Shown here: positions 5,589 through 34,613 of the stretch, piece after piece
How positions within the stretch are numbered: the stretch's first letter is position 1
How the letters are laid out: each line of letters begins with the position of its first letter
Virus record (IMG/VR): IMGVR_UViG_3300036853_000165
Span: 1 to 43,065 of that record
Reading direction: 5' to 3' (one strand)
DNA: 43,065 bases
From: a virus
Made by a program: the position numbers and the translations under genes
Notes under the pieces: model-generated
The model's input: the letters and a program-made list of their open reading frames with translations, nothing else
Databases searched by the model: none
Told to the model about the DNA's origin: nothing

Positions 5589-7034
5589 TCAAATCCTCTC
5601 GCGGCGATCAATCCGCTGGCGGTCGTGTAGCTTCAGCGCATCGGCGAAGGTGGGGATGGCGTCGACCGCCAGGAGCGGCTTCGGCGCCTTGCGGGTATAG
5701 GGGCGCGACATACAGGCGTAGCGCCATTCATCGGCGCAATGGTCCTCCCCATCCGTGTCCAAGTCTTCAGCCCGAATCTTGTCGTGCTGCAACGCGGGGA
5801 TAGTTCGAATGCTGTCTGTGCACGTCGAAAAGCAAAAAATCATCGGCGCGTCGTCGCCGATCAGTCGGGCGCGCACCTGATCCCATCCGGTGATTCGGCT
5901 GTTGTCAGCCTGCATCATGACGACGCCGCGTCCCATCATGCGCTCGGCGATGGACGGGCCGCCGTCAACTTTCCAGCACGAAGGATCTGCGATACGCGCG
6001 TTGATCTTGTCGCCTCCCTCTCGAAGCTTGATACCGTCCGCAAGCTGCTCTGCCGTTAGCTTGATGCCGACATTTGGTGATGAGGAACCGTACCACTCGC
6101 GATAGCGGATCATTGCGCCCGCCGGAAAATGCCTGCCGCCTGTCAGCAGCGAGCCATCCGAAACGGCCCACCATCCGACGCTGAAAGGCTTGGCCGATCC
6201 CCAGTCCATGGACATGATGCGCGTCCAGTGCGGGGGAACGGCGAAGGGCGCGATAACGTGCTTTGCCGATGACCAACAGTCGAAATAGGCGCCCTCGATG
6301 ACACTCCAATCGCCCTCAAGCCACGCCTTGACGAGCGCTTCAGAACCAACAAGAAAAAGCCGGCTCTTGTAGCCAGGGTCCTTCGCCAGAAGAATCCGAT
6401 TGTTCTCCACTTTTGACGGGATGAACACATAGCGGTGTTCGCTTCCATCGGGGAGCGCCCGCTTCAGTATCTTCATTCCACCCGGGGCTGGATCAACATA
6501 GCGGCGCTTGATCCAATGGTGCCCAGCCCCACCAGGGTTTGCCGTCAGGATCAACTGCGTCGGCACGCCTGCCGCCGACCTCATTGCCCCATGGAGCCGA
6601 TCAATTGGCCCAGGATCCGGATAGTTTCCAGCTTCCTCAACCGCCGCATCGGTCAGGTTTTGCCCCTGATATTTCTCGGCGTCGGCGATACTCTCAAGAG
6701 GGCGAAACCGGACGCGGCCACCGCGCGCAAACCGAAATGTCTTCTTTTGGTCCTGCCACTCGGCATCAAGCGGCAAATAGATTTCCTTGGCTCTCTCGAT
6801 CAGATCGTCCTGCTGCGGCATTTCGCGGCGGAAGAATACCGCATTGAACACCGAACCGTAGATCTCCGCCTTGATTGAGTATTTTCCGAGGATGCCGTCT
6901 GTCTTCCCGCCTCCTCGAGCCCCGCCGTAAAGGATCTCGGGTATAGGGCAATCAATTAGAGCTTTTTGCGGTCCCGTTTGCGGCTGCCAGACGATTTCCG
7001 GCGCCAAATCCATAGCGATCAGCCCATTCCTCAT
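5589..7034 (-). CDS. Terminase large subunit
   Basis: 481 residues if the start is 7034; ATG 7013 (residue 8) is an alternative with AGGA about 14 bases upstream. The protein is the packaging ATPase and nuclease. Walker A is GGARGGGKT at residues 37-45. A Walker-B-like AAVEEAG lies near 130-136, and the coupling motif TANPGG at 164-169. The nuclease domain begins near MSMDWGSAKP, with Asp277 as a likely metal ligand; a later acidic cluster around GEDHCADEWRYAC could supply another. Length and motif order are normal for the family. It overlaps the small subunit by 83 bases. Confidence 0.96.
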   Translation of the reverse strand: MRNGLIAMDLAPEIVWQPQTGPQKALIDCPIPEILYGGARGGGKTDGILGKYSIKAEIYGSVFNAVFFRREMPQQDDLIERAKEIYLPLDAEWQDQKKTFRFARGGRVRFRPLESIADAEKYQGQNLTDAAVEEAGNYPDPGPIDRLHGAMRSAAGVPTQLILTANPGGAGHHWIKRRYVDPAPGGMKILKRALPDGSEHRYVFIPSKVENNRILLAKDPGYKSRLFLVGSEALVKAWLEGDWSVIEGAYFDCWSSAKHVIAPFAVPPHWTRIMSMDWGSAKPFSVGWWAVSDGSLLTGGRHFPAGAMIRYREWYGSSSPNVGIKLTAEQLADGIKLREGGDKINARIADPSCWKVDGGPSIAERMMGRGVVMMQADNSRITGWDQVRARLIGDDAPMIFCFSTCTDSIRTIPALQHDKIRAEDLDTDGEDHCADEWRYACMSRPYTRKAPKPLLAVDAIPTFADALKLHDRQRIDRRERI

Positions 7035-7344
7035 CGTTCAACGGCTCTGCACTCACGACACGCTGGCGGACCTCGGCGTCTACCTTCTGTTCAATGCTGG
7101 ATAGTCTCGGGTGAATGTAGGGCGCCGCGTCTCCCGCTAGTTTAGCCGCCACAAGAGCCGCTTCGGCATCCTTCACCGTAACGCCGTCCGGAGCCGCAAC
7201 GAGCCATTGAGCGCGCATCGCGTTTAGCATGACCTCTAGCGGCATAATGCCATTAGCCGCCGCTACGTTGGCGATCTCTCGCGACTTCTTGGTTGCAGCA
7301 CCCGGCTTTCGACCGGCGCCAGGGCGTCGGCCACCGCGCGGCAT
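6952..7344 (-). CDS. Terminase small subunit
   Basis: 130 residues. The N-terminus PRGGRRPGAGRKPG is the typical basic opening of many small terminases, which recognise the packaging site and recruit the large subunit. A helical region follows (ANGIMPLEVMLNAMRAQW). The 3' end overlaps terL by 83 bases, a common arrangement. It is the first gene after the proposed late promoter (7461-7489), with a leader of roughly 110 bases. No strong ribosome site is visible upstream; GGAAAT lies about 20 bases away. Confidence 0.9.
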   Translation of the reverse strand: MPRGGRRPGAGRKPGAATKKSREIANVAAANGIMPLEVMLNAMRAQWLVAAPDGVTVKDAEAALVAAKLAGDAAPYIHPRLSSIEQKVDAEVRQRVVSAEPLNDEEWADRYGFGAGNRLAAANGTAKSSN

Positions 7345-7413
7345 TTGATTGTTTCGATTTCCAATGATTTATTTCAGATAATGCGGGCCTTCACGGCTGC
7401 CGCAGCGTCATAT

Positions 7414-7449
7414 CTCGTGCTGACGAGGCACAGCGGGTTGATTATCCGC
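7414..7449 (-). other. Stem-loops in late leader
   Basis: Two small inverted repeats lie in the leader downstream of the late promoter. One is at 7433-7449, with GCGG and CCGC arms around a 9-base loop. The other is at 7414-7427, with CTCGT and ACGAG arms around a 4-base loop. Neither has a U-run. They could be pause or loading signals for an antiterminator, or may mean nothing. Confidence 0.3.
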
Positions 7450-7460
7450 GCTGGGATGAA

Positions 7461-7489
7461 ACTATATTTGGTAATTGTATGAGGTTCAA
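7461..7489 (-). promoter_or_regulatory. Probable late promoter
   Basis: On the minus strand TTGAAC (7489-7484) and TATAGT (7466-7461) are separated by exactly 17 bases, a near-consensus sigma70 promoter and the best in the window. It lies in the gap between the NusG-like gene and the terminases and reads into the late genes. Transcription would begin near 7455. Confidence 0.65.
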
Positions 7490-7538
7490 GACCTATTTCG
7501 GTTGCCGATCACAATAAACGGCACCTCGACGGATTCGC

Positions 7539-8060
7539 TCACGCTACCGCCTCCACATGCTCGGGGCTGATCTCGATCGTCATCGGCCGGCCGAATAATT
7601 CCAATAACAGTTCGACACGCCGCGCGCTCGATTCCTTGCACAAGCTGAGCCATCCGGTAAAGGGGCCTGCAAGGATGCGTGCCTGCTGACCTGGGAGGAT
7701 ACTGAGGGTGGCATCGGCGCCGGATGCCATGTCGAGCAGGCCGTCACCATTTGCCTCAGCCTGCAGGCTCTCCACAAAGTCCTGCGGCAGTGGTAGCGGC
7801 TTCTCTGTGCTGTGCGAGCAGAGCAGTCGTTGGACGCCTCGTGTATCTTTGATTGTCTGCCATCCGTCGATGGTATGATCAAATCCGACGAAGAGATATC
7901 CTGGGAAGAGCGGCGTCAGAGCCATCGTCATCCGGCGCGCAATCCTACGGTTCTCCTCATGGTGCGGCAAGAATACATCGAAGCCCTGGCGCTTCAACCG
8001 CATTTGTGCCGTCCATTCGTGCTGTGGATGCGTTTGAGCGACATACCACCGGTGAGTCAT
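7539..8060 (-). CDS. NusG/RfaH-like transcription antiterminator
   Basis: 173 residues, the usual size of NusG paralogues. The N-terminal NGN domain is clear: HRWYVAQTHPQHE, then RLKRQGFDVFLP, LFPGYLFVGFD and an RGVQRLLC-type strand by about residue 83. The second half carries a KOW-like region with ILPGQQARILAGPFTGW. NusG paralogues bind the RNA polymerase clamp and suppress pausing and termination. The gene is the last before the late promoter, exactly where lambda has Q, so I infer it controls late transcription. It overlaps no neighbour and is separated from the preceding gene by only 4 bases. Confidence 0.9.
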   Translation of the reverse strand: MTHRWYVAQTHPQHEWTAQMRLKRQGFDVFLPHHEENRRIARRMTMALTPLFPGYLFVGFDHTIDGWQTIKDTRGVQRLLCSHSTEKPLPLPQDFVESLQAEANGDGLLDMASGADATLSILPGQQARILAGPFTGWLSLCKESSARRVELLLELFGRPMTIEISPEHVEAVA

Positions 8061-8064
8061 GCGA

Positions 8065-8556
8065 TCAATTCTCCAATTGCGGCCACAGATGCTTTACGGT
8101 GGCAGCGATAGCGGCTCTCAACCTGGCACGGTGCTTTGCTGGCTTGCTCAAGACGCCCATTTCCTTGATAGCGTCCATGCTGGCCTGTACAGCGTAGTCG
8201 CTGGGATCGAGCGTCACGATGACCATGCCGTTGGACCGGAGGACGCGCAGGAGGGTTGCCGCGTTGATCGCCGCCCCGGATTGGATCAATAGCCAATCTA
8301 GCGAGCCCGCTACCGTCTGGATCTGGCGCTGCCCAGGCTGCCGGGCGCCGGACCAGACCTCATGCACGAGCTGGCGGATTTGCCCTGGGTTGGACACGCC
8401 GCATTCCATCATCGCGTGGACGATGGCATAGCCGAATTCATGGACGCACTGCCGAAGGTCCGGAGACATGGCGTCTGTCTCGCTCAATCCTCGCAGCGTC
8501 CGAGCGGGAAGACGATCCGGGAGACCGTCGTGGATATTGGACTGCGGAGCAATCAT
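8065..8556 (-). CDS. Hypothetical protein of early-left operon
   Basis: 163 residues from ATG 8556, which overlaps the previous stop (TGATG) and has GGGGA about 5 bases upstream; an in-frame ATG at 8580 is less likely. The protein is helical, with a conserved-looking core (HEFGYAIVHAMMECG, GQIRQLVHEVW) and a C-terminal basic helix. It has the look of a small regulatory or replication-associated protein but no family is recognised. It sits between a replication-linked gene and the NusG-like gene. Confidence 0.75.
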   Translation of the reverse strand: MIAPQSNIHDGLPDRLPARTLRGLSETDAMSPDLRQCVHEFGYAIVHAMMECGVSNPGQIRQLVHEVWSGARQPGQRQIQTVAGSLDWLLIQSGAAINAATLLRVLRSNGMVIVTLDPSDYAVQASMDAIKEMGVLSKPAKHRARLRAAIAATVKHLWPQLEN

Positions 8557-9104
8557 CACGTCCCCATCCGATCGAGCCATTCCTGGGTGCGGGGATCGTC
8601 GAGGGCCGGCAGAGGCGGCGGATCAATGGTCGCGGGTCGCGAGCGCCATTTGTCCGATCGGTCGCTAGGCATGCGCTTCACTACGATGTCTCGTAACGTC
8701 TTGATCATCTGCCCGTTTTCGTGCTCGGCAAGCTCATGCTCGGCCTCGCTGAGGTCGTTGCGCCGGATCTTCCGCCAATAAGGCCTGACGACGTCTGCTG
8801 CAGGGATGGGGCCAGGATTGTATCGCTCGCTTTCCGAGGCTCGCGGATGCATCTCCCGCCACACCCGCTCGGCCTCGTAATCGAAATCCGGATTCGCCCA
8901 AACAAGACCCGGATCGAAGGGCGGCGGCCAGCTCGCTCCAACATGCCTCCACGAAGCTCGCATGTACGCATGCCAACGCCACTGTTCCTCGTCAGTGAGG
9001 TGGGAGAATGTACTTTGGCGGAGGCGTTCGTGGTCCGCTCGGCTGAACGGGCTGTCCACTCGATACTCCGCCAGAACCGTCCGTCCGTCCGTTCGCGTGT
9101 CCAT
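8556..9104 (-). CDS. Hypothetical protein overlapping replication gene
   Basis: 182 residues. The start ATG 9104 has AAGGAAA about 6 bases upstream although it lies 113 bases inside the 3' end of the replication gene. The overlapped end of the replication gene is low-complexity, while this protein's N-terminus (SRADHERLRQ, LTDEEQWRWHAYMRASW) looks constrained. It is rich in Trp, Arg and Pro, with no recognised domain. Position suggests an accessory replication or regulatory role, but this is only a guess. Confidence 0.72.
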   Translation of the reverse strand: MDTRTDGRTVLAEYRVDSPFSRADHERLRQSTFSHLTDEEQWRWHAYMRASWRHVGASWPPPFDPGLVWANPDFDYEAERVWREMHPRASESERYNPGPIPAADVVRPYWRKIRRNDLSEAEHELAEHENGQMIKTLRDIVVKRMPSDRSDKWRSRPATIDPPPLPALDDPRTQEWLDRMGT

Positions 9105-9840
9105 TGGACTTTCCTTGGTATTTTCCCTCTTGGACCCGCAAGATCGTCTTCGGTCTTAGCGCCCAATCGAAATCCGCTCTCCACCCCCGATCGTTCTCGC
9201 CGATGCAAAAAGGAGAGCCGCGAATTGCCCGACAGTGGCCGCGCCAAAGCTCGTAGTTCCGCTCAAACTCGCTATGGAACCGTAACCGGCAAGCCTTCAG
9301 TCGATCGTCGGTTAGCTTCCGAGGCGCCTCAAGAAGGCCGCCAAGCTCCTCCCGCCATATTGCTGCGAACCTTTCGGCGACCTCCCGAGCGGGTGGAGAC
9401 GATGCGACAGCATCCGGCGCCGGAGTGGGGTTAAGGGAAAGGGGAGTGGGGTTAAGGGAAAGGGCTTGGCTAGACGCATTCTCGACCTCTACCCGCTCGG
9501 CATTAGCACTGTTCTCGCATGGTGCCGGAATGATGCTTTCCGGCTCTTTCATGTGTGGGCTCTGGTGCTTAGAGAAGTTAACTACCTGAATGTATGAAAC
9601 ATTCCCGGACTCGTAGACTTGAATAAACCCTTTGGCGGAAAGCTGAGAAAGTAGTGCTTCTACCGCTGCATCATCGTAAGGAAGGATTTCAGCTTTCAGT
9701 TTTTTGGGCCGAAAAGCCAATCTCCCTTCGCGATCGGCATGACACCAAAGACCCTGAAACAGAATTCTCGCCAGAGGCTCGCACTCGGCTAAAAGATCAT
9801 TAGTGAAAAATCCTGGCTTTATGGTGCGGGCGCGCGCCAT
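8992..9840 (-). CDS. Phage replication initiation protein (O/DnaD-like)
   Basis: 282 residues. The N-terminus MARARTIKPGFFTND...ARILFQGLW and ADREGRLAF is typical of phage replisome organisers with an N-terminal winged helix. The middle is a linker that contains two LSLNPTP repeats (about residues 130-144). The C-terminal domain has WRGHCRAIRGSPF and GWRADFDWAL, the pattern found in phage O-like and DnaD-like proteins that load the helicase. The linker DNA is a 21-bp tandem repeat that may be the origin. The end is Gly/Ser/Pro-rich and overlaps the next gene. Confidence 0.87.
   Translation of the reverse strand: MARARTIKPGFFTNDLLAECEPLARILFQGLWCHADREGRLAFRPKKLKAEILPYDDAAVEALLSQLSAKGFIQVYESGNVSYIQVVNFSKHQSPHMKEPESIIPAPCENSANAERVEVENASSQALSLNPTPLSLNPTPAPDAVASSPPAREVAERFAAIWREELGGLLEAPRKLTDDRLKACRLRFHSEFERNYELWRGHCRAIRGSPFCIGENDRGWRADFDWALRPKTILRVQEGKYQGKSNGHANGRTDGSGGVSSGQPVQPSGPRTPPPKYILPPH
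9422..9464. repeat. Two 22-bp tandem repeats inside replication gene, possible origin
   Basis: Two identical 22-base copies with a 21-base period (first 9422-9443, second 9443-9464), core GGTTAAGGGAAAGG. They encode the duplicated LSLNPTP in the linker of the initiator. Lambdoid phages keep origin iterons inside the O gene at the same kind of position, and 21 bp is two helical turns. Confidence 0.5.
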
Positions 9841-10260
9841 CTACCACGCCTCCGCTTTGACTTTTGGACGACCGGCAACGTCAAATTTGCAGCCGCCGCA
9901 CTGCATCTTCCTGACCGACAGATTGCTCGCCTCATCAGACATTCCGCCGGACTGAGTAAGCATAAACGCGAGGGCGCGGTTTACTGACCAGTCGAGATCG
10001 TCCGGTGAAATATTGAACCATTCTCCCCGCAGCCTCAGGCCACGGTCTTCGAGGGCACGATGGAGAGCGGATTCTATCTCGCTGGCGGTAATCTTAACTG
10101 GGCACAGTCGCGCGTCCCAGATTTGCCGAAACCTCAAATCATGAGGGGAAGCGCATTGAAGCATTTGCATGCGCCGACGCGGCTTAGCGGTGATCCCCAA
10201 TTTGCACGGGGATGATGGCTTTCCATCAATGATGGTCTCTATTACATAGACGTAGCTCAT
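9841..10260 (-). CDS. GIY-YIG-type nuclease (T5orf172/Mug113-like)
   Basis: 139 residues from ATG 10260, which overlaps the stop of a 12-residue micro-ORF (ATGA) and has AGAAGGCGG upstream; the longer open frame above it is not needed. The domain runs over residues 1-100: YVYVIET, CKLGITAKPRRRMQMLQ, a SPHDL strand, then ESALHRALED, RLRGEWFNIS. This is the T5orf172-type GIY-YIG fold, in which the Glu of the EWF motif region helps bind metal. A C-terminal extension holds CGGC. A shorter paralogue is at 18171-18455. Confidence 0.83.
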   Translation of the reverse strand: MSYVYVIETIIDGKPSSPCKLGITAKPRRRMQMLQCASPHDLRFRQIWDARLCPVKITASEIESALHRALEDRGLRLRGEWFNISPDDLDWSVNRALAFMLTQSGGMSDEASNLSVRKMQCGGCKFDVAGRPKVKAEAW

Positions 10261-19829: not shown

Positions 19830-20135
19830 GCACGGCTTACGGCATCAAAGCTCGAAACGCTCAAGAGCACGACGGCGCATTGCTCCGCGTCTGAGGGCTT
19901 CCCGGCGGACTATTTAGAGACATTTGCCGAGCCGCTGCCGAATGGGGAATGCCTCTGTTGTGGTGAGGCCGCAACGTTCACCTGGGGTATGACCCACGGC
20001 GAGGGGTTTTGCGTCAAATGCGGTTGGCCTGCTCGGCTCTATCACTTCATCAAAACCGATGGCATCGAAACGCGCATCGTCCGTCTTCTTCAATACCACC
20101 CTGACGGAATCTCTCTGAACAAGAAGTCCGCCTAA
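19827..20135 (+). CDS. Cysteine-rich hypothetical protein
   Basis: 102 residues from ATG 19827, preceded by ACGGGAGACGGAC. It contains CLCCGEA and CVKCGWPAR, a four-cysteine zinc-ribbon pattern, and a C-terminal helical stretch. No family recognised. It is probably expressed immediately after infection. Confidence 0.75.
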   Translation: MARLTASKLETLKSTTAHCSASEGFPADYLETFAEPLPNGECLCCGEAATFTWGMTHGEGFCVKCGWPARLYHFIKTDGIETRIVRLLQYHPDGISLNKKSA

Positions 20136-20142
20136 CCACCCC

Positions 20143-20724
20143 GCTTCGTGAGGGAGACGATCATGACCGCAGCTAAATCGAAACCCCGAAGGCGCTTAAC
20201 CGCTGCCGAATGGGATGTCCTCTTGGATGCGGCTAATGCCTACGAAGCCGAGCCCGCAAACTTCGAAAACGATCCTGATGACAAGCGGCTCGATGCGCTC
20301 CACAGCGCCATCGAAAAGCTCCAACAGGCTTCGTGAGGGAGACGACCACAATGTTCCCACGAGTTGAATACGAGATGTCCCAGGCCGACCTTGATGAAAT
20401 CCTCAAGGCTTGCCGCTCGGTCCCCGTCATGATGGTCGGCGGATACGCACCGTCATCTCTTCAGGAAAATGCCAATCGCGCATGGGCGCGTCTCGGCGAG
20501 AAGATGGGATTCGACAGCGAGACGGTTCGTCCCATCGACGGCAAGGGGAATCGGTTCTTTACCGCCGTTCCGAGCGAAACCGAAGCGGCCCGTCAAGAGC
20601 GACTGACTCGCGAGTCCGAAGAGAAGCGCCAGCAGGAAATCGCTCGTCTTACTGATGAGATCGCTGAGCGGCAGCGGCAACTTGGTGCACTCAAAGCCGC
20701 TCGCGTGTCTCGTGAGGGAGACGA
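20143..20724 (+). repeat. Three copies of a CGTGAGGGAGACGA start cassette
   Basis: An 18-base unit, GCTTCGTGAGGGAGACGA, stands at 20143-20160 and 20328-20345. A third copy shares CGTGAGGGAGACGA at 20711-20724. Each precedes an ATG by 2-5 bases. In the second copy the TGA of GTGAGG is the stop of the preceding gene, and the third lies in the end of the preceding gene. Confidence 0.65.
20163..20336 (+). CDS. 57-residue hypothetical protein
   Basis: Starts at ATG 20163 directly after the repeated GAGGGAGACGATC cassette. The sequence is basic at the start (AAKSKPRRRLTAAEWD) and acidic in the middle, ending in a helix. It looks like a small folded phage protein; no family recognised. Confidence 0.68.
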   Translation: MTAAKSKPRRRLTAAEWDVLLDAANAYEAEPANFENDPDDKRLDALHSAIEKLQQAS

Positions 20725-20728
20725 GTGA
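20351..20728 (+). CDS. Coiled-coil hypothetical protein
   Basis: 125 residues from ATG 20351. An N-terminal globular part (SQADLDEILKACRS, ANRAWARLGEKMGFDSETV) is followed by a charged coiled coil rich in Glu, Gln and Arg. The globular part, with its RPIDGKGNRFF strand, resembles small phage proteins of unknown role. The stop overlaps the next ATG. Confidence 0.75.
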   Translation: MFPRVEYEMSQADLDEILKACRSVPVMMVGGYAPSSLQENANRAWARLGEKMGFDSETVRPIDGKGNRFFTAVPSETEAARQERLTRESEEKRQQEIARLTDEIAERQRQLGALKAARVSREGDE

Positions 20729-21084
20729 TGACCAATACTGATGACGGGCGCGCGGATGTCGCTGACGTTGGATTGCTCGGACGCGGGATCGTGTTCACGC
20801 AATATCTGATGCCTGATGGTCGCAAGCAGCGTACCGAGATTGACCGCCCTGCAGAAATCGAAGCGCTCGCACAGCAGTTCATCGACGCTGGTGGTTGGTA
20901 CGAATCCGAGATGCTGTCGGATTTCACCACCATCAGCTTGACGGCCTGCTTCAAGGTCGACGGACAGCCGGACGATATCGAGATCGTACTGTGTCGCAAC
21001 GGACCAGAAGTTCTGGATGCTGTCGATAATCTCGTGCGCAAGTCGATCGAATGGCTCGCCAAGGCCACCAGAGACGCGTCATGA
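20728..21084 (+). CDS. Hypothetical protein
   Basis: 118 residues from ATG 20728; it overlaps the previous stop by one base (TGATG) and the next gene by ATGA. It begins with a polar stretch and has a mixed alpha/beta pattern (IVFTQYLMPDGRKQRTEI, FTTISLTACFKVDG). No family recognised. Confidence 0.72.
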   Translation: MTNTDDGRADVADVGLLGRGIVFTQYLMPDGRKQRTEIDRPAEIEALAQQFIDAGGWYESEMLSDFTTISLTACFKVDGQPDDIEIVLCRNGPEVLDAVDNLVRKSIEWLAKATRDAS

Positions 21085-21293
21085 CCGATGGTGCCCAAGC
21101 ATATTACGCCGCGATCGATGCTCTCCGTGCCGGAGGACGGTTTCCCGAGGCCCTTGAGGCCGCACGCTGTGCCATGCGTCCCGGAGGGGTGTGTGATTGG
21201 CTTGAGGCCCCCATCGCCCGATACGAGGCAACAGAAGCCTTTATCAACCATACAAGAGAGACCGCCTTCAACATGAGGAGTGCCGCAGAATGA
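21081..21293 (+). CDS. 70-residue hypothetical protein
   Basis: ATG 21081 overlaps the preceding stop (ATGA), and its own stop overlaps the next ATG. It is helical (AYYAAIDALRAGGRFPEALEA) with two cysteines. No family recognised; the strict coupling supports that it is a real gene. Confidence 0.68.
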   Translation: MTDGAQAYYAAIDALRAGGRFPEALEAARCAMRPGGVCDWLEAPIARYEATEAFINHTRETAFNMRSAAE

Positions 21294-21475
21294 CCGCCGC
21301 TCCCCGCATCGACTACTTCGCCCTCGGCACGGCACTCACTCGCAAGAGCATAGAGGAATGCCATGCAGCTCGTAGGGAGATCGAATACCTCGTTGCCATG
21401 CATGGACCTGTGGATGTCCTGAGAGCGGCGAGGAAGGGATTGGAGACTCACGCGAAGGAGAATGGCAATGGGTGA
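21290..21475 (+). CDS. 61-residue hypothetical protein
   Basis: ATGA overlap with the preceding gene; its end overlaps the next small gene by 8 bases. It contains FALGTALTRKSIEECHAAR and a helical C-terminus. No family recognised. Confidence 0.68.
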   Translation: MTAAPRIDYFALGTALTRKSIEECHAARREIEYLVAMHGPVDVLRAARKGLETHAKENGNG

Positions 21476-21608
21476 TCCCTGCATCACGGCAATTGCTTGG
21501 GCTCTGTTGTTGTGCGGCGGCGCCGGGTTTCTCGTCGGATTTGTGTGGGGATGGATACAGGCGCTCAATTTTCATGCCGGCCTATCATCTCGCAGGAGGA
21601 AATCATGA
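21468..21608 (+). CDS. 46-residue membrane protein
   Basis: Starts at ATG 21468 with GAAGGAG upstream and ends at TGA 21608, overlapping the HNH gene start (ATGA). One long hydrophobic helix (AIAWALLLCGGAGFLVGFVW) precedes a basic tail (SSRRRKS), giving a likely cytoplasmic C-terminus. Function unknown. Confidence 0.65.
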   Translation: MGDPCITAIAWALLLCGGAGFLVGFVWGWIQALNFHAGLSSRRRKS

Positions 21609-22246
21609 ACACACAACAGACCGTCCGCAAGCCGCGCATCTCAGGAGAGGTGACGCCGGAAAGGTTTGCCAAGTCTGGCGTGGTGCTTCGTCGCGTTGGG
21701 CGAGACTGTCTGGAATGTGGCTCCATCTTCGTGCGGCCTAAACAAGCCTCGGGTGGAAAATATTGCTCAATCCCCTGCGCAGTGAAGGCCCGTGTCAGAC
21801 AGAGTGCGCGGCCTATCATGGAGCGGTTTGAGGCCAATGTTTTCCCCGAGCCTAACTCGGGATGTCACCCATGGATGGGGTTCGTAAGGCCCAACGGCTA
21901 CGGCACCATTCATCTCGACAGAAAGAGGGAATACGCGCACCGCGTTTCGTGGCGGATACACCGAGGCGAAATTCCTCATGGCCTATTTGTGCTGCACAAA
22001 TGCGATGTCCGGTGCTGCGTCAATCCTGATCATCTGTTTCTCGGTACTGCCGCTGACAATGCCGCGGACATGGTCGCGAAAGGGCGAGACCGGCGGCCGC
22101 TCCCAAAATTAACGGCGTCGCAGGTCGGGGAAATCCGAGCTCGCGTTGCCGGTGGAGTAGTCCAGGCATCATTGGCGAGAGAGTACGGTGTCTCCAAGGC
22201 CACAGTTTGTTTGATCGTTTCCCGGCAAAAATGGAGTCAAGCATGA
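21605..22246 (+). CDS. HNH endonuclease with duplicated N-terminus
   Basis: 213 residues from ATG 21605 with AGGAGG upstream. An N-terminal segment (RISGEVTPERF, 11-21) resembles the neighbour at 22243. A zinc knuckle follows (C36, C39, C54, C58). The HNH_3 core is EYAHRVSWRIHRGEIPHG, VLHKCDVRCCVNPDHLFLGT, with likely metal and catalytic residues His112, His131, Asn140 and His143. A C-terminal HTH (LAREYGVSKATV, 190-201) would bind DNA. The layout resembles a free-standing homing endonuclease. Confidence 0.9.
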   Translation: MNTQQTVRKPRISGEVTPERFAKSGVVLRRVGRDCLECGSIFVRPKQASGGKYCSIPCAVKARVRQSARPIMERFEANVFPEPNSGCHPWMGFVRPNGYGTIHLDRKREYAHRVSWRIHRGEIPHGLFVLHKCDVRCCVNPDHLFLGTAADNAADMVAKGRDRRPLPKLTASQVGEIRARVAGGVVQASLAREYGVSKATVCLIVSRQKWSQA

Positions 22247-22431
22247 CCGACAACAAGACTGCCTCACGCCGAATAACGGGAGATATTACGCCCGAGCGCT
22301 TCATGCGTCTGACGCAGCATTTACGGATCAACGGCAAACCCGTCGAGAACGTCCTCGAAATGCTGCAGTCGGAGAAACGCTCCGAGCGGTTCCGGGAGAT
22401 GATCAAGACGGGCGCAGAGAGTACGCCGTGA
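22243..22431 (+). CDS. 62-residue protein resembling HNH N-terminus
   Basis: ATGA overlap with the HNH gene. It carries SRRITGDITPERFMRLTQ, very like the RKPRISGEVTPERF segment of the preceding nuclease. The remaining helical part (NVLEMLQSEKRSERF) is unique to it. It may be the ancestral gene from which the nuclease N-terminus came. Its stop overlaps a GTG start (GTGA). Confidence 0.7.
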   Translation: MTDNKTASRRITGDITPERFMRLTQHLRINGKPVENVLEMLQSEKRSERFREMIKTGAESTP

Positions 22432-22496
22432 TCACTGCACTGGAAATCTTTGCCGGCCTTGTACTGCTGGCCGCTATCTGGGGAGCGATGACATGA
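22428..22496 (+). CDS. 22-residue hydrophobic peptide
   Basis: GTG start overlapping the previous stop (GTGA) and a stop overlapping the next ATG (ATGA). The peptide is one hydrophobic helix (ITALEIFAGLVLLAAIW), long enough to cross a membrane. With both ends fixed by coupling, translation is likely. Confidence 0.5.
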   Translation: MITALEIFAGLVLLAAIWGAMT

Positions 22497-22735
22497 GACC
22501 GTATCGCCTTGAGGGACAGTGCCTCACTGCCATGGCTGCCGCCGCGACCGCTCGCGTTATCGCAGACAACACCCCTGACGGATCTATCCTGTCATACGCC
22601 GCGACCAAGGATCTGCTGTTCGCCATCGCCGATCTGGAACGCATCGTTAAACGATTCTCCGAGATCGAGCATATCCGCGAGCTGCGCGGGGCAATCGAAC
22701 GGGCGGCCAATCCGGTCCAGGCAGCCGCAGAATGA
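22493..22735 (+). CDS. 80-residue helical hypothetical protein
   Basis: ATGA overlaps at both ends. The sequence is helical and Ala-rich (TAMAAAATARVIADN, LFAIADLERIVKRFSEIEH). No family recognised; it directly precedes the Gp157-like gene. Confidence 0.7.
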   Translation: MRPYRLEGQCLTAMAAAATARVIADNTPDGSILSYAATKDLLFAIADLERIVKRFSEIEHIRELRGAIERAANPVQAAAE

Positions 22736-23247
22736 CAAACCTCGATGCCGCCGCTCGCAACAACGCCATTCTACGCGAGGAATTGCTACGCGCCTATCCC
22801 GGACTGATCGAAGACGACCAGGCATTGAGCGATACGCTCGAAGGCATCTCGGATTTCTCCGATGCCGTTGCCGCTGTCGTGCGGTCGATGGACGACGATG
22901 AAATGATGATCGTTGGCATCAAGGATCGCCAATCCGATCTGACGGCCCGTCAGCAACGCCACGAGGCCCGCATCGCATCCAAGCGCGCTGCCCTGACGCT
23001 GGCGATGGAGCGTGCCGGCGAGAAGAAGATCACGGCCCCGGACTTCACCTTGTCCCTAACTGCAGTCGCGCCAAAGGTGATCGTCACTGACGAGGGCGCG
23101 CTGCCTAAGGATTATCTCGTCCAGCCAGAACCGCCGCCGCCACGGCCAGACAAGAAGCTGATAAAGCAAGCGCTCGCCGATGGTTTCGAGGTGCCTGGCG
23201 CAACGCTTTCCAATGGGTCAACGACAATCACCATTCGCAAGAAGTAG
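22732..23247 (+). CDS. Siphovirus Gp157-family protein
   Basis: 171 residues. The C-terminal half follows the Gp157 family: RQQRHEARIASKRAALTLAMERAG, EKKITAPDFTLSLT, then LPKDYLVQPEPPPPRPDKKLIKQALADG and VPGATLSNG. The family is named after a Streptococcus thermophilus phage protein linked to phage resistance, and its position before an ssDNA-binding protein fits a role in recombination. The N-terminal half is helical. ATGA overlap with the previous gene. Confidence 0.87.
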   Translation: MTNLDAAARNNAILREELLRAYPGLIEDDQALSDTLEGISDFSDAVAAVVRSMDDDEMMIVGIKDRQSDLTARQQRHEARIASKRAALTLAMERAGEKKITAPDFTLSLTAVAPKVIVTDEGALPKDYLVQPEPPPPRPDKKLIKQALADGFEVPGATLSNGSTTITIRKK

Positions 23248-23255
23248 GAGCGACC

Positions 23256-23900
23256 ATGTACCTCCCGAAGCCCAACGAGACTGATTTCACGCCCCCGCCC
23301 GCTGGCACGCATCTGGCGACGTGCTATCGCGTGATTGATCTCGGAACGCAACTGACCGAGTTCCAGGGACAACAGAAAAAGCAGCACAAGATCATGATCT
23401 CGTGGGAACTGCCCAACGAGCCGATGGAGGATGGAACGCCCTTCTCTGTCCATCAGCGCTACACGTTCTCCATGTCGGAGAAAGCCAATCTTCGTCATCA
23501 CCTGGAAGCATGGCGCGGCAAGCCTTTCGTGGACTCTGATTTCGGCCAGGGCGGCTTTCAAATCGAGAAGATCATCGGCGCCGGGTGCATGCTGAATGTC
23601 CTGCACGCGACGAAGAACGGCAAGACCTACGCCAACATCACGGCGGTCATGTCGCTACCGAAGGGCACCAAGGCCGCTCCGCTCATCAACAAGCCGGCGT
23701 TCCTGTCGCTCGACGAGTTCGATCAATCGGCCTTCGATGGCCTCTCGCAGGGCTTGCGTGACGTGATCACGAAGTCCCCCGAGTACCAGACCATACTCGC
23801 CAAGCGCAACGGCACTTACAATGGAGCGGATACGCCGAGCGAGGACGATTACGGTCACAACCCACCCGGTCCCGATCTCGACGATGAGATTCCGTTTTAG
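23256..23900 (+). CDS. ssDNA-binding protein with SSB-like tail
   Basis: 214 residues. The first 150 residues are beta-rich with GTHLATCYRVIDLG, FQGQQKKQHKIMISWEL and YANITAVMSL, like the phage OB-fold ssDNA-binding proteins of recombination cassettes. The last eight residues are LDDEIPF-type (DLDDEIPF), very close to the tail of E. coli SSB (DFDDDIPF), which recruits RecQ, PriA, exonucleases and other host partners. It lies between the Gp157 and DUF968-like genes. A short acidic, Pro/Gly-rich linker precedes the tail. Confidence 0.88.
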   Translation: MYLPKPNETDFTPPPAGTHLATCYRVIDLGTQLTEFQGQQKKQHKIMISWELPNEPMEDGTPFSVHQRYTFSMSEKANLRHHLEAWRGKPFVDSDFGQGGFQIEKIIGAGCMLNVLHATKNGKTYANITAVMSLPKGTKAAPLINKPAFLSLDEFDQSAFDGLSQGLRDVITKSPEYQTILAKRNGTYNGADTPSEDDYGHNPPGPDLDDEIPF

Positions 23901-23903
23901 GTC

Positions 23904-24263
23904 ATGCTCCCACGCAAGAGAGAGCCTGTGAGATCGGGCATCGCCAGAGCGCCACGGCGAGAGTGGCCACGGCATCGTGCTTGGGTGCGTCGGCACGGTT
24001 GCTGCGTATGCGGGATCTTCCCATCTGGTTTTCCCATCGAGTTCGCGCACGTTCGCACGGGCACGGATGGCGGCACGGGAATCAAGCCGTCCGATTGGTG
24101 GGGAATTTCGCTGTGCTCGCATCATCACCGCGATCAGCACCTTATCGGCGAGCCGGCGTTCGAGGCCACTTATTGCATCGACATGAAAAAGCTGGCGATG
24201 GAGTTCGCGAAAACGTCGGTTGATTCAGCAATGCGCGCAGCCATGAAGGAGGCAGGACTATGA
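23904..24263 (+). CDS. HNH-type recombination protein (DUF968-like)
   Basis: 119 residues from ATG 23904. The zinc/HNH pattern is CCVCG, EFAHVRTG, then DWWGISLCSHHHRDQHLIG. The His-rich CSHHHRDQH block is typical of DUF968/HNHc_6 phage proteins, which stand near recombination genes and can replace RusA- or NinG-like resolvases. The 3' end overlaps the next ATG (ATGA). Confidence 0.85.
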   Translation: MLPRKREPVRSGIARAPRREWPRHRAWVRRHGCCVCGIFPSGFPIEFAHVRTGTDGGTGIKPSDWWGISLCSHHHRDQHLIGEPAFEATYCIDMKKLAMEFAKTSVDSAMRAAMKEAGL

Positions 24264-24844
24264 CCGACATCGCTACCCAAGCACGCTCAGTCGCCTCCCA
24301 CATGGAGGTGAAGAAGATCGCGTATCGGCAGACCAAGGACGGTGTCGTGATATCGTTCCTGGTCCATCCAAACGAGGTTGTCGATACTGTCGCCGTCGCC
24401 CCGCTTGGCACGCGCTACGTGGCCGCCCTTGTCGAGATCGGAGACAATGAAGAGCCTGTCTCCCACGAAGGTCCCGCCCCCGCCGTCCCCCACGGCCCAA
24501 GCACTGCATTGGAACGGACAACCCCAATAGCGGTGCCGGGGCGGGACACAGCGAAGAGCGAGAGGGCGAAGGCGAATTTCCGAGCGCTTCCCGAGATGAA
24601 GCAAGATGTCGTGCGGGCGGCAATGCTCATCAAGGACGAGACGTTCCAGGGATGGATTTTGGGCGCGGATTTCGACCGATTGTCTGTCAAATATCGAGAG
24701 GTCGAAACTGACAGGGACTTGAAATTTCGTCTCGGTATTACCTCTAAATCCGAGATCGGAGAAAGTCGCGATATCAACGAGCGGTGGCGCAATCTGCACA
24801 CATCGTATCTCGCAGACACGAACCAGCTTGCCGAGGTGCGCTGA
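24260..24844 (+). CDS. Hypothetical protein
   Basis: 194 residues. The N-terminal 65 residues are beta-rich (MEVKKIAYRQTKDGVVISFLVHP, AALVEIGDN). A Pro/Ala linker follows. The C-terminal half is helical, charged and lacks cysteines. It is coupled to the HNH gene by ATGA. No family recognised. Confidence 0.75.
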   Translation: MTDIATQARSVASHMEVKKIAYRQTKDGVVISFLVHPNEVVDTVAVAPLGTRYVAALVEIGDNEEPVSHEGPAPAVPHGPSTALERTTPIAVPGRDTAKSERAKANFRALPEMKQDVVRAAMLIKDETFQGWILGADFDRLSVKYREVETDRDLKFRLGITSKSEIGESRDINERWRNLHTSYLADTNQLAEVR

Positions 24845-24845
24845 G

Positions 24846-24926
24846 ATGTCGGGAGCGCCAGCGAGCGGATTGACAAAACTAGCGGTGCGCCGCGTTAGAC
24901 AACATCAAAAGGATCTAGGGTCATGA
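24846..24926 (+). CDS. 26-residue basic micro-ORF
   Basis: ATG 24846 follows the previous stop by one base, and its TGA overlaps the next ATG (ATGA). It begins MSGAPASGLTK and then has RRVRQHQK. The DNA also contains TTGACA at 24870-24875, but no good -10. It may be a real peptide or a coupling link. Confidence 0.45.
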   Translation: MSGAPASGLTKLAVRRVRQHQKDLGS

Positions 24927-25780
24927 CTCAGGACGAGAGCGCAGAGGTACGCAAGAGGCTGCGCGAGCTGCAGGCGAAAGCTTGGAATGCAGACGCCATT
25001 TTCTTCGATAAAGACGGCCGAGAAATTGGGTCTCTGGATTTGACCACGATCCTCGACTCCCTCTCCCTCCAGTCCCCGAGCGACGGAGCGTCGTTCCAAG
25101 CGCGCGTGCAGCCGTGGATGATGGCGTGTTTCGGAGCCGAGATCAGCGCCGACAAGCTGGAGCGCAACCACCGTTTCTTCGAGGAGGCGACGGAGACGGT
25201 CCAGGCCGCCGGCATGACGCGCAGTGAGGCGCACCAACTCGTGGATTACACTTTTGATCGCCCGATTGGCGAGCTTCGTCAGGAAGCCGGCGGCGCGATG
25301 GTCACCCTGGCGGCGCTATGCCTGGCGCACGGGCTCGACATGCACGAGGCCGGAGAGATCGAACTGGCGCGGGTCTGGACGAAGGTCGACGCCATCCGCG
25401 CCAAGCAAGCTGCTAAGCCGAAGCACTCGCCGCTGCCTGCGTCCCCGAGCGTACCAGTGGGGGAGGAGGACCGTGCGCGCGCTCTCGATTTCGCTCACCG
25501 TTACGGGCAGGCCAACAGCAAAGGTTGGTGCCGTATCCACGAAAACGATCTCATCAACGCGTTCCTCGAATATGGCCTATCCACCCGCACCCAAGCCCTG
25601 AGAGAGATGAGGGAACGAGCGGCGAAGGTCGCTGAGGAGAAGGCAGACCACCACGAAGCCGATCGCAACGCCAGCACTCCAGGCGATGCCAGCTACTATT
25701 TATGGGCTCGGCAATCTGCGAATCACGTCGCTGTCGCCATCCGCGCCCTCCCCCTAGACGATAAGGGGGAGCGAGCATGA
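24923..25780 (+). CDS. MazG-like NTP pyrophosphatase-domain protein
   Basis: 285 residues. Residues about 47-165 have a MazG-like pattern: FGAEISADKLERNHRFFEEATE, GMTRSEAHQLVDYTF, QEAGGAMVTLAALCLAHG, then ELARVWTKVDAIRAKQ. MazG-type enzymes hydrolyse NTPs to NMPs; the ExxE residues here could bind magnesium. The C-terminal part is helical with a coiled stretch. Phages often carry such genes, which may affect nucleotide alarmones or pools. Confidence 0.85.
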   Translation: MTQDESAEVRKRLRELQAKAWNADAIFFDKDGREIGSLDLTTILDSLSLQSPSDGASFQARVQPWMMACFGAEISADKLERNHRFFEEATETVQAAGMTRSEAHQLVDYTFDRPIGELRQEAGGAMVTLAALCLAHGLDMHEAGEIELARVWTKVDAIRAKQAAKPKHSPLPASPSVPVGEEDRARALDFAHRYGQANSKGWCRIHENDLINAFLEYGLSTRTQALREMRERAAKVAEEKADHHEADRNASTPGDASYYLWARQSANHVAVAIRALPLDDKGERA

Positions 25781-25914
25781 TCTATGCGTTCGTAGGGTTG
25801 GCATTCACCAGTGGATTGCTCGTCGGCTTTGCGCTTTGGGATGTGATCGATAGAACGAAATGGGCGGCATATCGCGCGGTCTATCGTCACGCCCGCCCCT
25901 CGGAGGACATCTGA
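25777..25914 (+). CDS. 45-residue membrane protein
   Basis: ATGA overlap with the MazG-like gene. One hydrophobic helix (YAFVGLAFTSGLLVGFALW) is followed by a basic and aromatic tail (RTKWAAYRAVYRHAR). Probably an inner-membrane protein with a cytoplasmic tail. Confidence 0.63.
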   Translation: MIYAFVGLAFTSGLLVGFALWDVIDRTKWAAYRAVYRHARPSEDI

Positions 25915-25915
25915 C

Positions 25916-26146
25916 ATGGAAGGAATCATCGCACGGCTTAGGCGCCTTATTTGTCGGCACGATTGGGAGACGCGTTACGGTGATCTCCGCGCTGATCCAG
26001 TTTATGGCCTACGAACATATCACGAGGTTTATTGGCGCTGCAGCTCGTGCGGCAAGCTCGCCACGAAGGGGTGCGCTCCCGAATTCATCGCCGCCCTCCG
26101 TGCCCGCGCCACCCCTACCACTGGTCCAGAGAGAGGACGGACGTGA
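25916..26146 (+). CDS. 76-residue zinc-binding protein
   Basis: ATG 25916 directly follows the previous stop; GGAGGAC lies just upstream. It has CRHDW near the start and CSSCGKLATKGC in the middle, typical of small phage zinc proteins. It overlaps the next ATG by one base (TGATG). Confidence 0.72.
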   Translation: MEGIIARLRRLICRHDWETRYGDLRADPVYGLRTYHEVYWRCSSCGKLATKGCAPEFIAALRARATPTTGPERGRT

Positions 26147-26331
26147 TGACGAAAGCGCAGAAGACGACGATGCGGTATGCCGGCGTCTTGGGCCTACTTT
26201 CCGAGTGCTCGGTCTACGTTCCGGAGGAAATCCGAGAGAGCATCGAACAAGCCTTCGCTGATGCTAGTGAGGATGGGTCTTTCCGTTGGTGTCGCGTTCT
26301 TGATCGCGTCGAAATCGAGGTAACCCCATGA
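26146..26331 (+). CDS. 61-residue hypothetical protein
   Basis: Starts at ATG 26146 (TGATG overlap) and ends at 26331 with an ATGA overlap. It has MRYAGVLGLLSECSVYVPEE and FRWCRVLDRVEIEV. No family recognised. Confidence 0.66.
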   Translation: MTKAQKTTMRYAGVLGLLSECSVYVPEEIRESIEQAFADASEDGSFRWCRVLDRVEIEVTP

Positions 26332-27491
26332 CCCTCCCGTCCGACCGCGAAGCAGAGCTTGAAGCGGCAATCCGACGCTACGGCCACATGCCGTTCACGG
26401 AGAAGACGCCGCACCGCGAATTGGTCAGCGAGGCCAATAAGCTTCACGGCTACCGAGACGCGCTCCTCCGCCTCCTCACCGCCGAGCGCGCCAAGAGCGA
26501 GGAGCTGCGGGCGGCGCTCGCAGAGTACGGGTGCCATCGCGCCGGCTGCGGACTTGTCCTGCATCGAAGCGAATGCACATGCGGCTTGCGGTTCACCCTC
26601 TCCTCCTCGCCCTCGCCTACCCCCGATGATACGGGCGCACTCTTGCTCGATGCGACCGAGTGGGCATCGTTCGTCGAGTTCATGAAGAACCCGCCGGCAC
26701 CGACGCCAGCCATGCGTGAGGCCGTGAAGCTCTATCGGGAATGGCAAATCGCGCAACCACCAGCGCCCTCGCCTACCCCACCCCTCAGTGTGGGCGATCC
26801 GGCTTCGCCGTCGCGTGATCGTGCTTCGCATGGAGCCGCCGATGGCGTCTCCACCCTTCGGGCTTCTCCCGCTATCGCAGGGCTGGAGCACGTCATCATC
26901 AATCTGCATTGGATGGCTCGGCGATATGCCGATGGGCGCCAGACTTACGCGCCCGGCCTGTTCAACGATTGCACCCGCTCGCTCTTGCAAATGGGCATAG
27001 AGCTTAAGGGCGGCGCAGACGGCACGATTTGGGCGCGCAATTCTCTCGGGCGGCAATATGACGATCTGACCGATGAAGAAGCCGCGCAAGGGATCGTCAC
27101 CCAACGGGACGAGACGCGAAGCGGCTCGGTCGAGCGCAGCGAGATAGAGCCCGGTCCGAAGGATGCGCCCAAGGATAGTGGCTCGCCTACCCCACTACAG
27201 GAGGCGGTGCGGGACACCGGCATTCAGGCTTTCTATGTTGGTCAGCGCGTGCGCGTCTCGGAACGATCCCAATTTTGGCACGATTGGAAGGATGCCCGGC
27301 TAGAGATCGCATCCGTCGAGCGCCGCCGACCGGGCCCGATCCTCTACGGCACTTATGACCTCGACAATCCCAGCGAAGGCATGACGACAGACTGGCGAGA
27401 AGATGATCTCTCCCGCCTCTCCCAGTCCGATGCAGAGGGGAAGAGACCGCTTGCGGGATACGGTTACAGTTTCGCACGCGACGAGGATTAG
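26328..27491 (+). CDS. Large modular hypothetical protein
   Basis: 387 residues made of separable parts. The N-terminal part is helical with a YGCHRAGCGLVLHRSECTCG zinc-like motif. It continues with LLLDATEWASFVEFMKNPPAPTPAMREAV, which resembles a DUF1778-type antitoxin helix pair. Pro-rich linkers separate the parts. Later come a GLEHVIINLHWMARRYADGRQ block and a C-terminal WHDWKDARLEIASVER region. It looks like a mosaic of phage modules. Function unknown. Confidence 0.75.
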   Translation: MTLPSDREAELEAAIRRYGHMPFTEKTPHRELVSEANKLHGYRDALLRLLTAERAKSEELRAALAEYGCHRAGCGLVLHRSECTCGLRFTLSSSPSPTPDDTGALLLDATEWASFVEFMKNPPAPTPAMREAVKLYREWQIAQPPAPSPTPPLSVGDPASPSRDRASHGAADGVSTLRASPAIAGLEHVIINLHWMARRYADGRQTYAPGLFNDCTRSLLQMGIELKGGADGTIWARNSLGRQYDDLTDEEAAQGIVTQRDETRSGSVERSEIEPGPKDAPKDSGSPTPLQEAVRDTGIQAFYVGQRVRVSERSQFWHDWKDARLEIASVERRRPGPILYGTYDLDNPSEGMTTDWREDDLSRLSQSDAEGKRPLAGYGYSFARDED

Positions 27492-27578
27492 ATTGTGTCA
27501 CTCGTTGCCACTACCACGATCTGCGTCAGGCCGCGCGAGTCCCGCGCGACATCGTGCCCATAAATTGAGAGAAAAACA

Positions 27579-27785
27579 ATGAGCAGACTTGTCGATATTG
27601 TGGTCCGAGAAGCTAGCCATCAAGCGACGATGACGTTCGAAGAATTAGTCAAGGGATGCACTCCCGATGAGCGCGAGCAATTGGCGTGGCATCTCGCAAT
27701 GCTTCGTGCGCGGCGTACATTCGATGCGCTTTCTAAGCCGTGCGCTGACGCGCTCGGCATCCGTCCCTCGGAGGTAGATTCTTAG
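27579..27785 (+). CDS. 68-residue hypothetical protein
   Basis: Starts after an 87-base gap with GAGAG before ATG 27579. It is helical (VDIVVREASHQATMTFEEL, QLAWHLAMLRARR). No family recognised. Confidence 0.65.
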   Translation: MSRLVDIVVREASHQATMTFEELVKGCTPDEREQLAWHLAMLRARRTFDALSKPCADALGIRPSEVDS

Positions 27786-27813
27786 TTGTCTTCCGCAGAG
27801 CACCGCTTTTCTT

Positions 27814-27845
27814 TTCACGCCGCGTTTCTCGCGGCATCGAGGAGC
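27814..27845 (+). repeat. Stem-loop cassette before HAD gene
   Basis: A perfect stem, GCCGCG (27820-27825) with CGCGGC (27831-27836), has a TTTCT loop and is followed by ATCGAGGAG. A close relative lies at 31997-32024. Both stand just after a stop codon preceded by TCTTAG. Confidence 0.5.
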
Positions 27846-27853
27846 ACCAAAAT

Positions 27854-28438
27854 ATGAGCAAGCCGATCCTCTGTCTCGACTTCGACGGCGTAATCCACAG
27901 CTATAGCAGCGGGTGGAAAGGTGCCGACGTGATCCCCGATCCGCCTGTTGACGGCGCGCTGCAGTTCATTCGTGAAGCACTGAAGCATTTTCGCGTCGCG
28001 ATCTTCTCCAGCAGGAGCAATCAGCCGGGCGGCCTGGATGCGATGAAGGACTATATCGCGCTCAACAGCGAGCTCGGATTTAACGATCCCATTGAAGGCC
28101 TGGAATGGCCGCTGGAGAAGCCGCCCGCGATGGTCACGATAGATGACCGAGCGCTGACCTTCGATGGCACATGGCCGCGTCTCGACGATCTGCTCAAGTT
28201 CCAGCCCTGGAACAAGCGCCCGCTCGGCGCGACAGGGCTTCATCCTGATGGCGTCCTCAATGACCACGACGAGGGCGAGCTGAAATTCGGCATTGCCCGC
28301 GACCCGGTCGACGGGCTGGTGCATGTCAACTTCGGAAAGCCGGTCGCGTGGTTCGCGTTTCCGCCGCAGGATGCAATCGGCCTTGCGCGGCTGCTCTTGA
28401 AACATGCGGGCGCGAAGAAAGTCGAGATCGAACTCTGA
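27854..28438 (+). CDS. HAD-like phosphatase with C-terminal fused domain
   Basis: 194 residues. The HAD motifs are: I, LDFDG with Asp9 and Asp11; II, FSSR with Ser52/Ser53; and IV, TIDD with Asp97/Asp98. The N-terminal 120 residues form a compact phosphatase similar to polynucleotide-kinase-type or nucleotidase HAD proteins. The C-terminal 70 residues (FGIARDPVDGLVHVNFGKPVAWFAFPP) form a separate domain that also occurs alone in small alphaproteobacterial phage proteins. GAGGAG precedes the start. Confidence 0.85.
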   Translation: MSKPILCLDFDGVIHSYSSGWKGADVIPDPPVDGALQFIREALKHFRVAIFSSRSNQPGGLDAMKDYIALNSELGFNDPIEGLEWPLEKPPAMVTIDDRALTFDGTWPRLDDLLKFQPWNKRPLGATGLHPDGVLNDHDEGELKFGIARDPVDGLVHVNFGKPVAWFAFPPQDAIGLARLLLKHAGAKKVEIEL

Positions 28439-28472
28439 CCGCGAGCGAGGTATCGAGGCCGAAGGCCACGGC

Positions 28473-28529
28473 GTGAAGCCAGCCTATCCACGCGCACGTA
28501 AGACACCACCATACCATCCCATGGGTTAG
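28473..28529 (+). CDS. Uncertain 18-residue Pro-rich ORF
   Basis: A GTG-initiated ORF in the 118-base gap between two genes encodes a Pro/Tyr/Arg-rich peptide (RARKTPPYHPMG). No convincing ribosome site precedes it and no coupling exists, so support is weak. Confidence 0.2.
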   Translation: MKPAYPRARKTPPYHPMG

Positions 28530-28556
28530 GTAGGGGCACGAGAGAGGACAACGACG

Positions 28557-29021
28557 ATGACGGAATCCAAAACATCGACCTTCACAATTCACCATGATCG
28601 ATGCAAGCCCGAGACCTGGACGGCGAAGGATGTTCTGGCGCTGGCCGAGTTTGTCAGGACCGGCAACCTCCAGACCGCCGCGCGTCTCTCCAGGCTCGGC
28701 GTCCAGCTTGTCCTGTCGGAGCACCACGAGCCGAAGGGCGGCTCGCTGGAGGAAATCGGCTGGGTCGTCAATGCCGATCCATCGCTGATCTATACTGACC
28801 TCGGCGAGGCTGTCGAGGCGGATGGCGACGAAGACATTTCGGCACTGTCCCGGGTCTACCGCAGCGCTCCCGAATACGTCGTCAAATATGCTATCGGCGA
28901 TGGCGACGGCAATGTCGAAGGCCATGAATTCGAGATTATGCGGACCCAAGGCGAAGCGGAAAAGTTCGTTGCCGATATCATGAACAATGCCGTGCCGGCG
29001 ACCGATGGAGGGGAGCGGTGA
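28557..29021 (+). CDS. Hypothetical protein
   Basis: 154 residues from ATG 28557 with GAGAGGA upstream. It has FTIHHDRCKPETWTAKDVLALAEF, then RLGVQLVLSEHHEPKGG and an acidic middle. No family recognised. Its stop overlaps a GTG start (GTGA). Confidence 0.73.
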   Translation: MTESKTSTFTIHHDRCKPETWTAKDVLALAEFVRTGNLQTAARLSRLGVQLVLSEHHEPKGGSLEEIGWVVNADPSLIYTDLGEAVEADGDEDISALSRVYRSAPEYVVKYAIGDGDGNVEGHEFEIMRTQGEAEKFVADIMNNAVPATDGGER

Positions 29022-29632: not shown

Positions 29633-29634
29633 GT

Positions 29635-30114: not shown

Positions 30115-30116
30115 TC

Positions 30117-31543: not shown

Positions 31544-31594
31544 GATTAGCGAGCGTTTCAGCCCTATGCAAGCATTTTCCCCTGGAGCTTCCCC

Positions 31595-31735: not shown

Positions 31736-31769
31736 TGGGGAGTGTTCCCCTATGGAAGGAGGATGAGGG

Positions 31770-34608: not shown

Positions 34609-34613
34609 TGAGG

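Follow-up and report, generated by a model that had tools for sequence, protein, structure and literature searches.

How a phage that carries no Q homologue commits its transcription to the late genes is the question raised by this locus; to our knowledge, how the late genes are controlled has yet to be explained for most temperate phages of this kind. We analysed a window of 43,065 nucleotides, i.e., the whole stretch of the IMG/VR virus record IMGVR_UViG_3300036853_000165, in which a paralogue of NusG and RfaH is encoded exactly where the early genes give way to the late ones. We consider it somewhat more probable than the contrary that this gene encodes a phage processive antiterminator of the NusG/RfaH family, standing in lambda's Q place and carrying early transcripts into the late genes. 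This reading is built on the gene order, an ops element, the residues of the DNA-binding pocket, and the predicted NGN fold. The locus comprises the following features:

7539 to 8060, minus strand: NusG/RfaH paralogue, 173 aa, with NGN and KOW domains (Pfam NusG, phrog_6386, NCBIfam RfaH, AlphaFold model).
7540 to 7551, minus strand: exact ops element GGCGGTAGCGTG, in the last nusG codons and including the TG of the stop codon (all 12 bases match; expectation for the window 0.01).
7345 to 7538, minus strand: intergenic gap of 194 nt between nusG and terS, delimited by the ORF coverage of the minus strand.
6952 to 7344, minus strand: small ORF in the terminase-small position (phrog_15261).
5589 to 7034, minus strand: terminase large subunit, the first clear late gene (phrog_2, 6e-35).

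The nusG gene closes a gap-free block of early genes on the minus strand, to which the replication-initiation gene (8992-9840) also belongs, and is the last gene ahead of the terminase; like lambda Q, it thus lies between early and late genes. Downstream come the gap, the phrog_15261 ORF, TerL, and a portal gene, and a member of the phrog_15261 family also follows nusG in the contig L172. The gap (7538-7345) is the sole non-coding stretch of at least 30 nt between 17,010 and 1,000 of the minus strand (around 16 kb). The preliminary description of this DNA had announced a full-length NusG paralogue as the last gene of its operon, followed by terminases, and both statements held. The full-length ORF of 173 aa matches Pfam NusG (3.4e-21) and ends the gap-free block, and the ORF in the terminase-small position is followed by TerL. 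Further into the late region, an ORF at 4383-5522 matches both an arabinofuranosidase catalytic domain (9e-9) and a family of virion structural proteins.

We then asked what kind of NusG protein this is. It belongs to the NusG/Spt5 superfamily, since NGN and KOW domains are recovered by Pfam, AlphaFold, and Foldseek, and it falls into phrog_6386, annotated "transcription antiterminator". The AlphaFold model (pLDDT 89.5) retrieves both NusG and RfaH in Foldseek, and its NGN domain superposes on ops-bound RfaH with 1.5 A over 99 columns. RfaH is autoinhibited by a C-terminal domain in an alpha-helical state; the KOW domain here is modelled as a beta-barrel with no helical hairpin, a single prediction with which fold switching would be compatible. 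Among the NCBIfam models, RfaH (TIGR01955) scores best with 91.2 bits, under its cut-off of 144.5; the cut-offs of housekeeping NusG (TIGR00922, 45.5 vs 135.7 bits) and LoaP (NF033641, 49.3 vs 125 bits) are missed as well, and none of the curated cut-offs for NusG, RfaH, UpxY, and LoaP is reached. Hence, although the RfaH model scores best, "works like RfaH" is a stronger claim for this protein than "is RfaH". The paralogue keeps the RfaH pocket residues R23, Q24, T72, R73, G74, and V75. Of the four side chains by which RfaH contacts ops (K10, H20, R23, and R73), R23 and R73 are the same, while K10 is replaced by H and H20 by R. No Q-family protein was found at the locus, all matching models being of the NusG family.

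The element GGCGGTAGCGTG at 7551-7540 is identical to the E. coli ops element used by RfaH and, as for RfaH, stands at the presumed target operon. Loose matches (up to two mismatches) occur in the window at chance level (6 vs 5.1), so that only the exact match counts. At the same place, L002, an IMG/VR contig, has 11 of the 12 bases, with the mismatch at A7; RfaH reads G4, G5, and T6 specifically, and A7 is not among these bases (PMC5995543). L002, whose NusG is 80% identical, is the sole close relative found: scans of genome collections and a megablast against phages gave none, and other viral scans gave L002 only. For an independent test of ops, viral contigs were searched by the protein motif PLFPGYxFV alone, which yielded 98 contigs with a NusG homologue encoded at every motif locus analysed. 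Around the nusG stop of 78 non-redundant regions, the ops core GCGGTAGC ranks first of all 8-mers, being present in 7 regions, the window among them, vs 18 of 3120 background windows (p 5.6e-7, or around 0.04 once multiplied by all 65,536 8-mers). It is strand-specific, never occurring on the reverse strand around these stops. The cores accompany the pocket residue Q24 (6/17 vs 1/61, p 0.0003), together with a basic or polar side chain at residues 10 and 20, and for the Q24-type proteins all of 200 shuffled motifs match less well than ops. Terminase genes follow at five of the seven ops-core loci (the window, L131, L124, L172, and L173), L121 and L146 being undecidable. A hairpin just 5' of ops, convincing by eye as a paired pause signal, was discarded as not above controls (p 0.76).

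Several of these contigs show features of their own. L019 and L020, with fully RfaH-like pocket residues (HIHRQTRGV and HRHRQTRGV), carry GCGGTAGC in the 5' part of nusG, around 440 nt upstream of the stop and in the same codons, so that their ops signal may lie at the opposite end of the gene. L133 and L164 have RfaH-like genes (pocket residues KINRQTYGI) with no terminase found downstream, a nucleotidyltransferase gene following in L133; the two genes may be regulators of the ordinary kind, acting on surface operons. In L124, a single ORF (7911-9845) joins a portal-family protein to an Acb1 (anti-CBASS) domain at the C-terminus.

Does the position of the gene recur beyond this phage? Among phages with annotation, phi3LM21, phi2LM21, Mesorhizobium P1, and Nostoc JY10 have nusG closing the early genes ahead of the terminase block, and it has the same position in Bradyrhizobium ppBjS10J-1, where the annotations are hypothetical only. 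In Rivra, PPF1, and Microcystis yong2, nusG lies near the end of the record and the terminase at its start. An extra gene, e.g., an HNH nuclease, sometimes sits between the two. This comparison left out unannotated Listeria, Staphylococcus, and Enterococcus records, and the Microcystis "phage" MaAM05 (MW495066.1, L011) was discarded because it looks bacterial (secE-nusG-rplK-rplA and metabolic genes). Among the loci found by the NusG motif alone, terL lies downstream in 45 of 65 decidable cases, a recount made since the first TerL search had missed terL or portal at several loci; it was not found in the other 20, where TerL detection is limited. At the loci of the RNA element described below, the order is nusG then terminase in 58/58 decidable cases. 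The position recurs at 30-35% protein identity and beside different terminases. Judging from these gene orders, the layout with a NusG paralogue before the terminase is general.

In the rhizobial phages, the gap 3' of nusG also holds conserved sequence. Using a DNA pattern of its core and no protein information, we searched 2.9 million viral contigs of IMG/VR and obtained 97 contigs, i.e., 102 loci with five phage records, of which three may serve as examples:

L003, 8622 to 8685: two-helix RNA, then intrinsic terminator.
L009, 6735 to 6798: two-helix RNA, then intrinsic terminator.
L008, 8559 to 8622: two-helix RNA, then intrinsic terminator.

The element always lies just 3' of the phage NusG paralogue. 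Wherever enough sequence precedes the element, a NusG-like ORF in the same orientation stops 91-151 nt before it, the remaining loci being cut off less than 300 nt away; in 51 of 52 loci, terL begins no more than 3 kb downstream. The two helices are borne out by the alignment: 96.4% of cells pair vs 92.4% in shuffles, double changes number 57 vs 19, and slid versions of the helices pair at most at 53%. The covariance model R1 finds the element in phage P1, which is outside its training set (E 1e-12). A scan with Rfam matched no family around the element or in the window, a tRNA elsewhere being the sole match. An intrinsic terminator starts 8-21 nt past the core in 87/101 loci vs 3.4% of control stretches. 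One strand of the outer stem, CAGGGC, has an alternative partner in the invariant GCUAUG, which makes a structural switch possible. This arrangement of RNA and terminator in the sister phages provides direct evidence, by comparison, for putative antitermination at the early/late boundary.

The boundary of the window is, by this comparison, of another type. R1 has no match in the window, whose leader was thus rejected as a member of the rhizobial family, and none in the gap of L002, where a chance-level match falls outside the gap only. Conversely, no ops core is found in the rhizobial group. Terminators show no real excess after nusG at the NusG-motif loci (8/99 vs 4% of controls), and the window has no clear one. 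Its gap is structured as follows:

7396 to 7499, minus strand: conserved non-coding island of around 100 bp, made of a promoter-like site and a leader (78-79% identity to L002; flanks 31% and 41%).
7461 to 7489, minus strand: promoter-like TTGAAC-17-TATAGT of uncertain use (score 9/12; conserved in L002).
7430 to 7452, minus strand: hairpin CAGCG-C-GG / loop / CC-CGCTG (same fold in L002; stability not above shuffles).
7405 to 7429, minus strand: possible small pseudoknot between the loop CGTCA (7424-7420) and TGACG (7409-7405), speculative, with both segments kept in the two sequences (window and L002).
7382 to 7402, minus strand: GC-rich hairpin GCGG..CCGC with a T-poor tail, a weak terminator at most (L002 has a different hairpin in the same place).

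Between the window and L002, DNA identity is 76% in nusG, 31% in the 49 nt after its stop, 79% in the promoter-like site, 78% over the next 65 nt, 41% over the next 51 nt, and 50% in terS. The island, extending from just before the -35 through CTGCGG, has therefore been held while both its sides drift, which favours a functional role for the gap. Beside it, TerL is mosaic: from 5589-7034 of the window to 6957-8408 of L002, the N-terminal half is dissimilar and the C-terminal half has around 78% DNA identity. nusG and the adjoining island are conserved next to this mosaic gene.

We propose the following course of events. RNA polymerase, having transcribed the early block, would pause at ops, where the paralogue would bind the exposed non-template strand as RfaH does. 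It would thereby displace the host NusG and render the polymerase resistant to pausing and to Rho, so that transcription would cross the structured gap and enter the long late operon. Since the protein has to be produced from the early transcript beforehand, a timed early-to-late switch would result. In the rhizobial relatives, the same job would be done with another docking signal, a structured RNA with an intrinsic terminator immediately behind it. The candidate signals, ops in the window and several other phages and structured RNA with a terminator in the rhizobial ones, suggest modification of the transcripts that come in from the early operon, and not fresh initiation at a late promoter. 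Four points go against an RfaH-like action: K10 and H20 are replaced, the ops of the window overlaps codons, the full ops is absent from most other Q24-type phages, and nusG of the window has no clear terminator behind it. Moreover, the scheme gives no purpose to a conserved promoter-like site that lies downstream of ops, since transcripts starting there could not use an ops lying upstream of them.

The preliminary description had instead seen here the lambda layout of Q, PR', and late genes, with the strongest promoter of the window directly after nusG, then small stem-loops, and the NusG paralogue as a possible late antiterminator; neither ops nor the RNA element figures in it. In the corresponding reading, the late promoter at 7489-7461 would start a structured leader on which the paralogue is loaded, ops being coincidental or vestigial. 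The TTGAAC and TATAGT boxes spaced by 17 bp are indeed present, inside the only large gap, and L002 retains the site, its spacing, and part of its spacer, but not the flanks. However, its rank as strongest promoter was not confirmed: our scan, which covered the first 20 kb and then 20,001-40,000, found a site at 1340 on the plus strand scoring 10/12, above the 9/12 of this one, and the first 20 kb hold 6 such sites vs 5.7 +/- 2.3 in shuffles. The counterpart in L002 (TTGAAC-17-TATGGT) reaches only 8/12. Such a site is found in 1 of the 78 NusG-type regions, the window itself, vs 2.6% by chance, and in 0 of 91 RNA-element loci vs 1.4%, which rules out this promoter as a general late signal. We hence regard the scheme as rather unlikely. 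Of the lambda likeness, the position stands, and the putative role of late antiterminator is well supported, on comparative grounds, by the recurring layout; a late promoter after the gene is not general, even if the site is conserved in L002.

The stem-loops lead to another reading, in which the leader RNA (hairpin and possible pseudoknot), and not ops, loads the protein in the manner of LoaP, for which a hairpin provides the precedent (PMC12691694), so that 7499-7396 would be an RNA family of its own. It would account for the conserved island, and sister phages have their RNA element equally far from nusG. The stem-loops are there, but shuffled sequence folds just as well (z -0.1 to -1.2), and no compensating base changes are seen in the 7430-7452 hairpin between the window and L002, the only two sequences at hand. 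R1 has no match there, and the protein scores as RfaH, not as LoaP. We deem this improbable. The chances are equally slim that the paralogue modifies host or phage transcription in general, e.g., by relieving Rho silencing or displacing the host NusG, with an incidental place. NusG-family proteins can bind any elongating polymerase, and the 20/65 loci where terL was not found (with limited detection) would fit; on the other hand, the position recurs at 30-35% identity beside different terminases, and the boundary signals match the protein type.

The protein kind itself has been encountered before. An antiterminator, with NusG unmentioned, was reported to end the early region of phiLM21-like prophages in 2025 (PMC12429752), rfaH-like genes on prophages are mentioned in passing in an evolutionary study (PMC7593976), and a study of Helicobacter prophages compares a NusG-like gene to lambda N (PMC11321410). 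Within open-access papers, we came across nothing that links phage NusG to ops, describes the RNA element or the terminator, or recognises the Q position as general. The use as a Q substitute with two boundary signals appears to be new. That many phage lineages use their own NusG/RfaH paralogues as a late switch replacing Q, docking on ops or on structured RNA with an intrinsic terminator, has in our estimation a little less than an even chance. If true, RfaH-type regulation and ops may draw on one phage gene pool, and RfaH biology would be widened from virulence and capsule operons to viruses. A paralogue with a recognisable cis signal would offer an answer that can be tested in a large group of phages, including rhizobial ones with named hosts, and as protein and signal adjoin, recruitment is open to a two-part reporter dissection. 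A candidate RNA family of 97 contigs, absent from Rfam and with a clear protein partner, is added.

Compared with known systems, the window shares with lambda Q and PR' the position at the early/late boundary and the presumed job, and differs from them by an unrelated protein family, the lack of a recurring late promoter, and other docking signals. Among the phage "antiterminator" annotations, it joins those of phrog_6386. GafZ of the Caulobacter gene transfer agent, reported to act with the host NusA, NusG, and NusE through a proposed element inside the promoter, brings about antitermination across a long, phage-like gene cluster of an alphaproteobacterium (PMC11150451); unlike our protein, it is a separate factor and no paralogue of NusG. 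LoaP, at the dfn and mln operons of Bacillus velezensis, combines a NusG paralogue, a leader RNA element, and then an intrinsic terminator (PMC12691694). The rhizobial sister group shares these three components, here in the Q position, with a different RNA structure and a phage setting before the terminase, while the window protein, at 49 bits, stays far from the LoaP cut-off of 125. From E. coli RfaH, the paralogue departs in being phage-encoded, in adjoining its presumed single target with ops in its own 3' end, in the H and R that replace K10 and H20, in missing the TIGR01955 cut-off, and in the modelled beta-barrel KOW with no helical hairpin. With RfaH and its ops it nevertheless has in common the two-domain family, the NGN fold, six pocket residues, the identical 12-nt element, and, as the expected target, a long operon.
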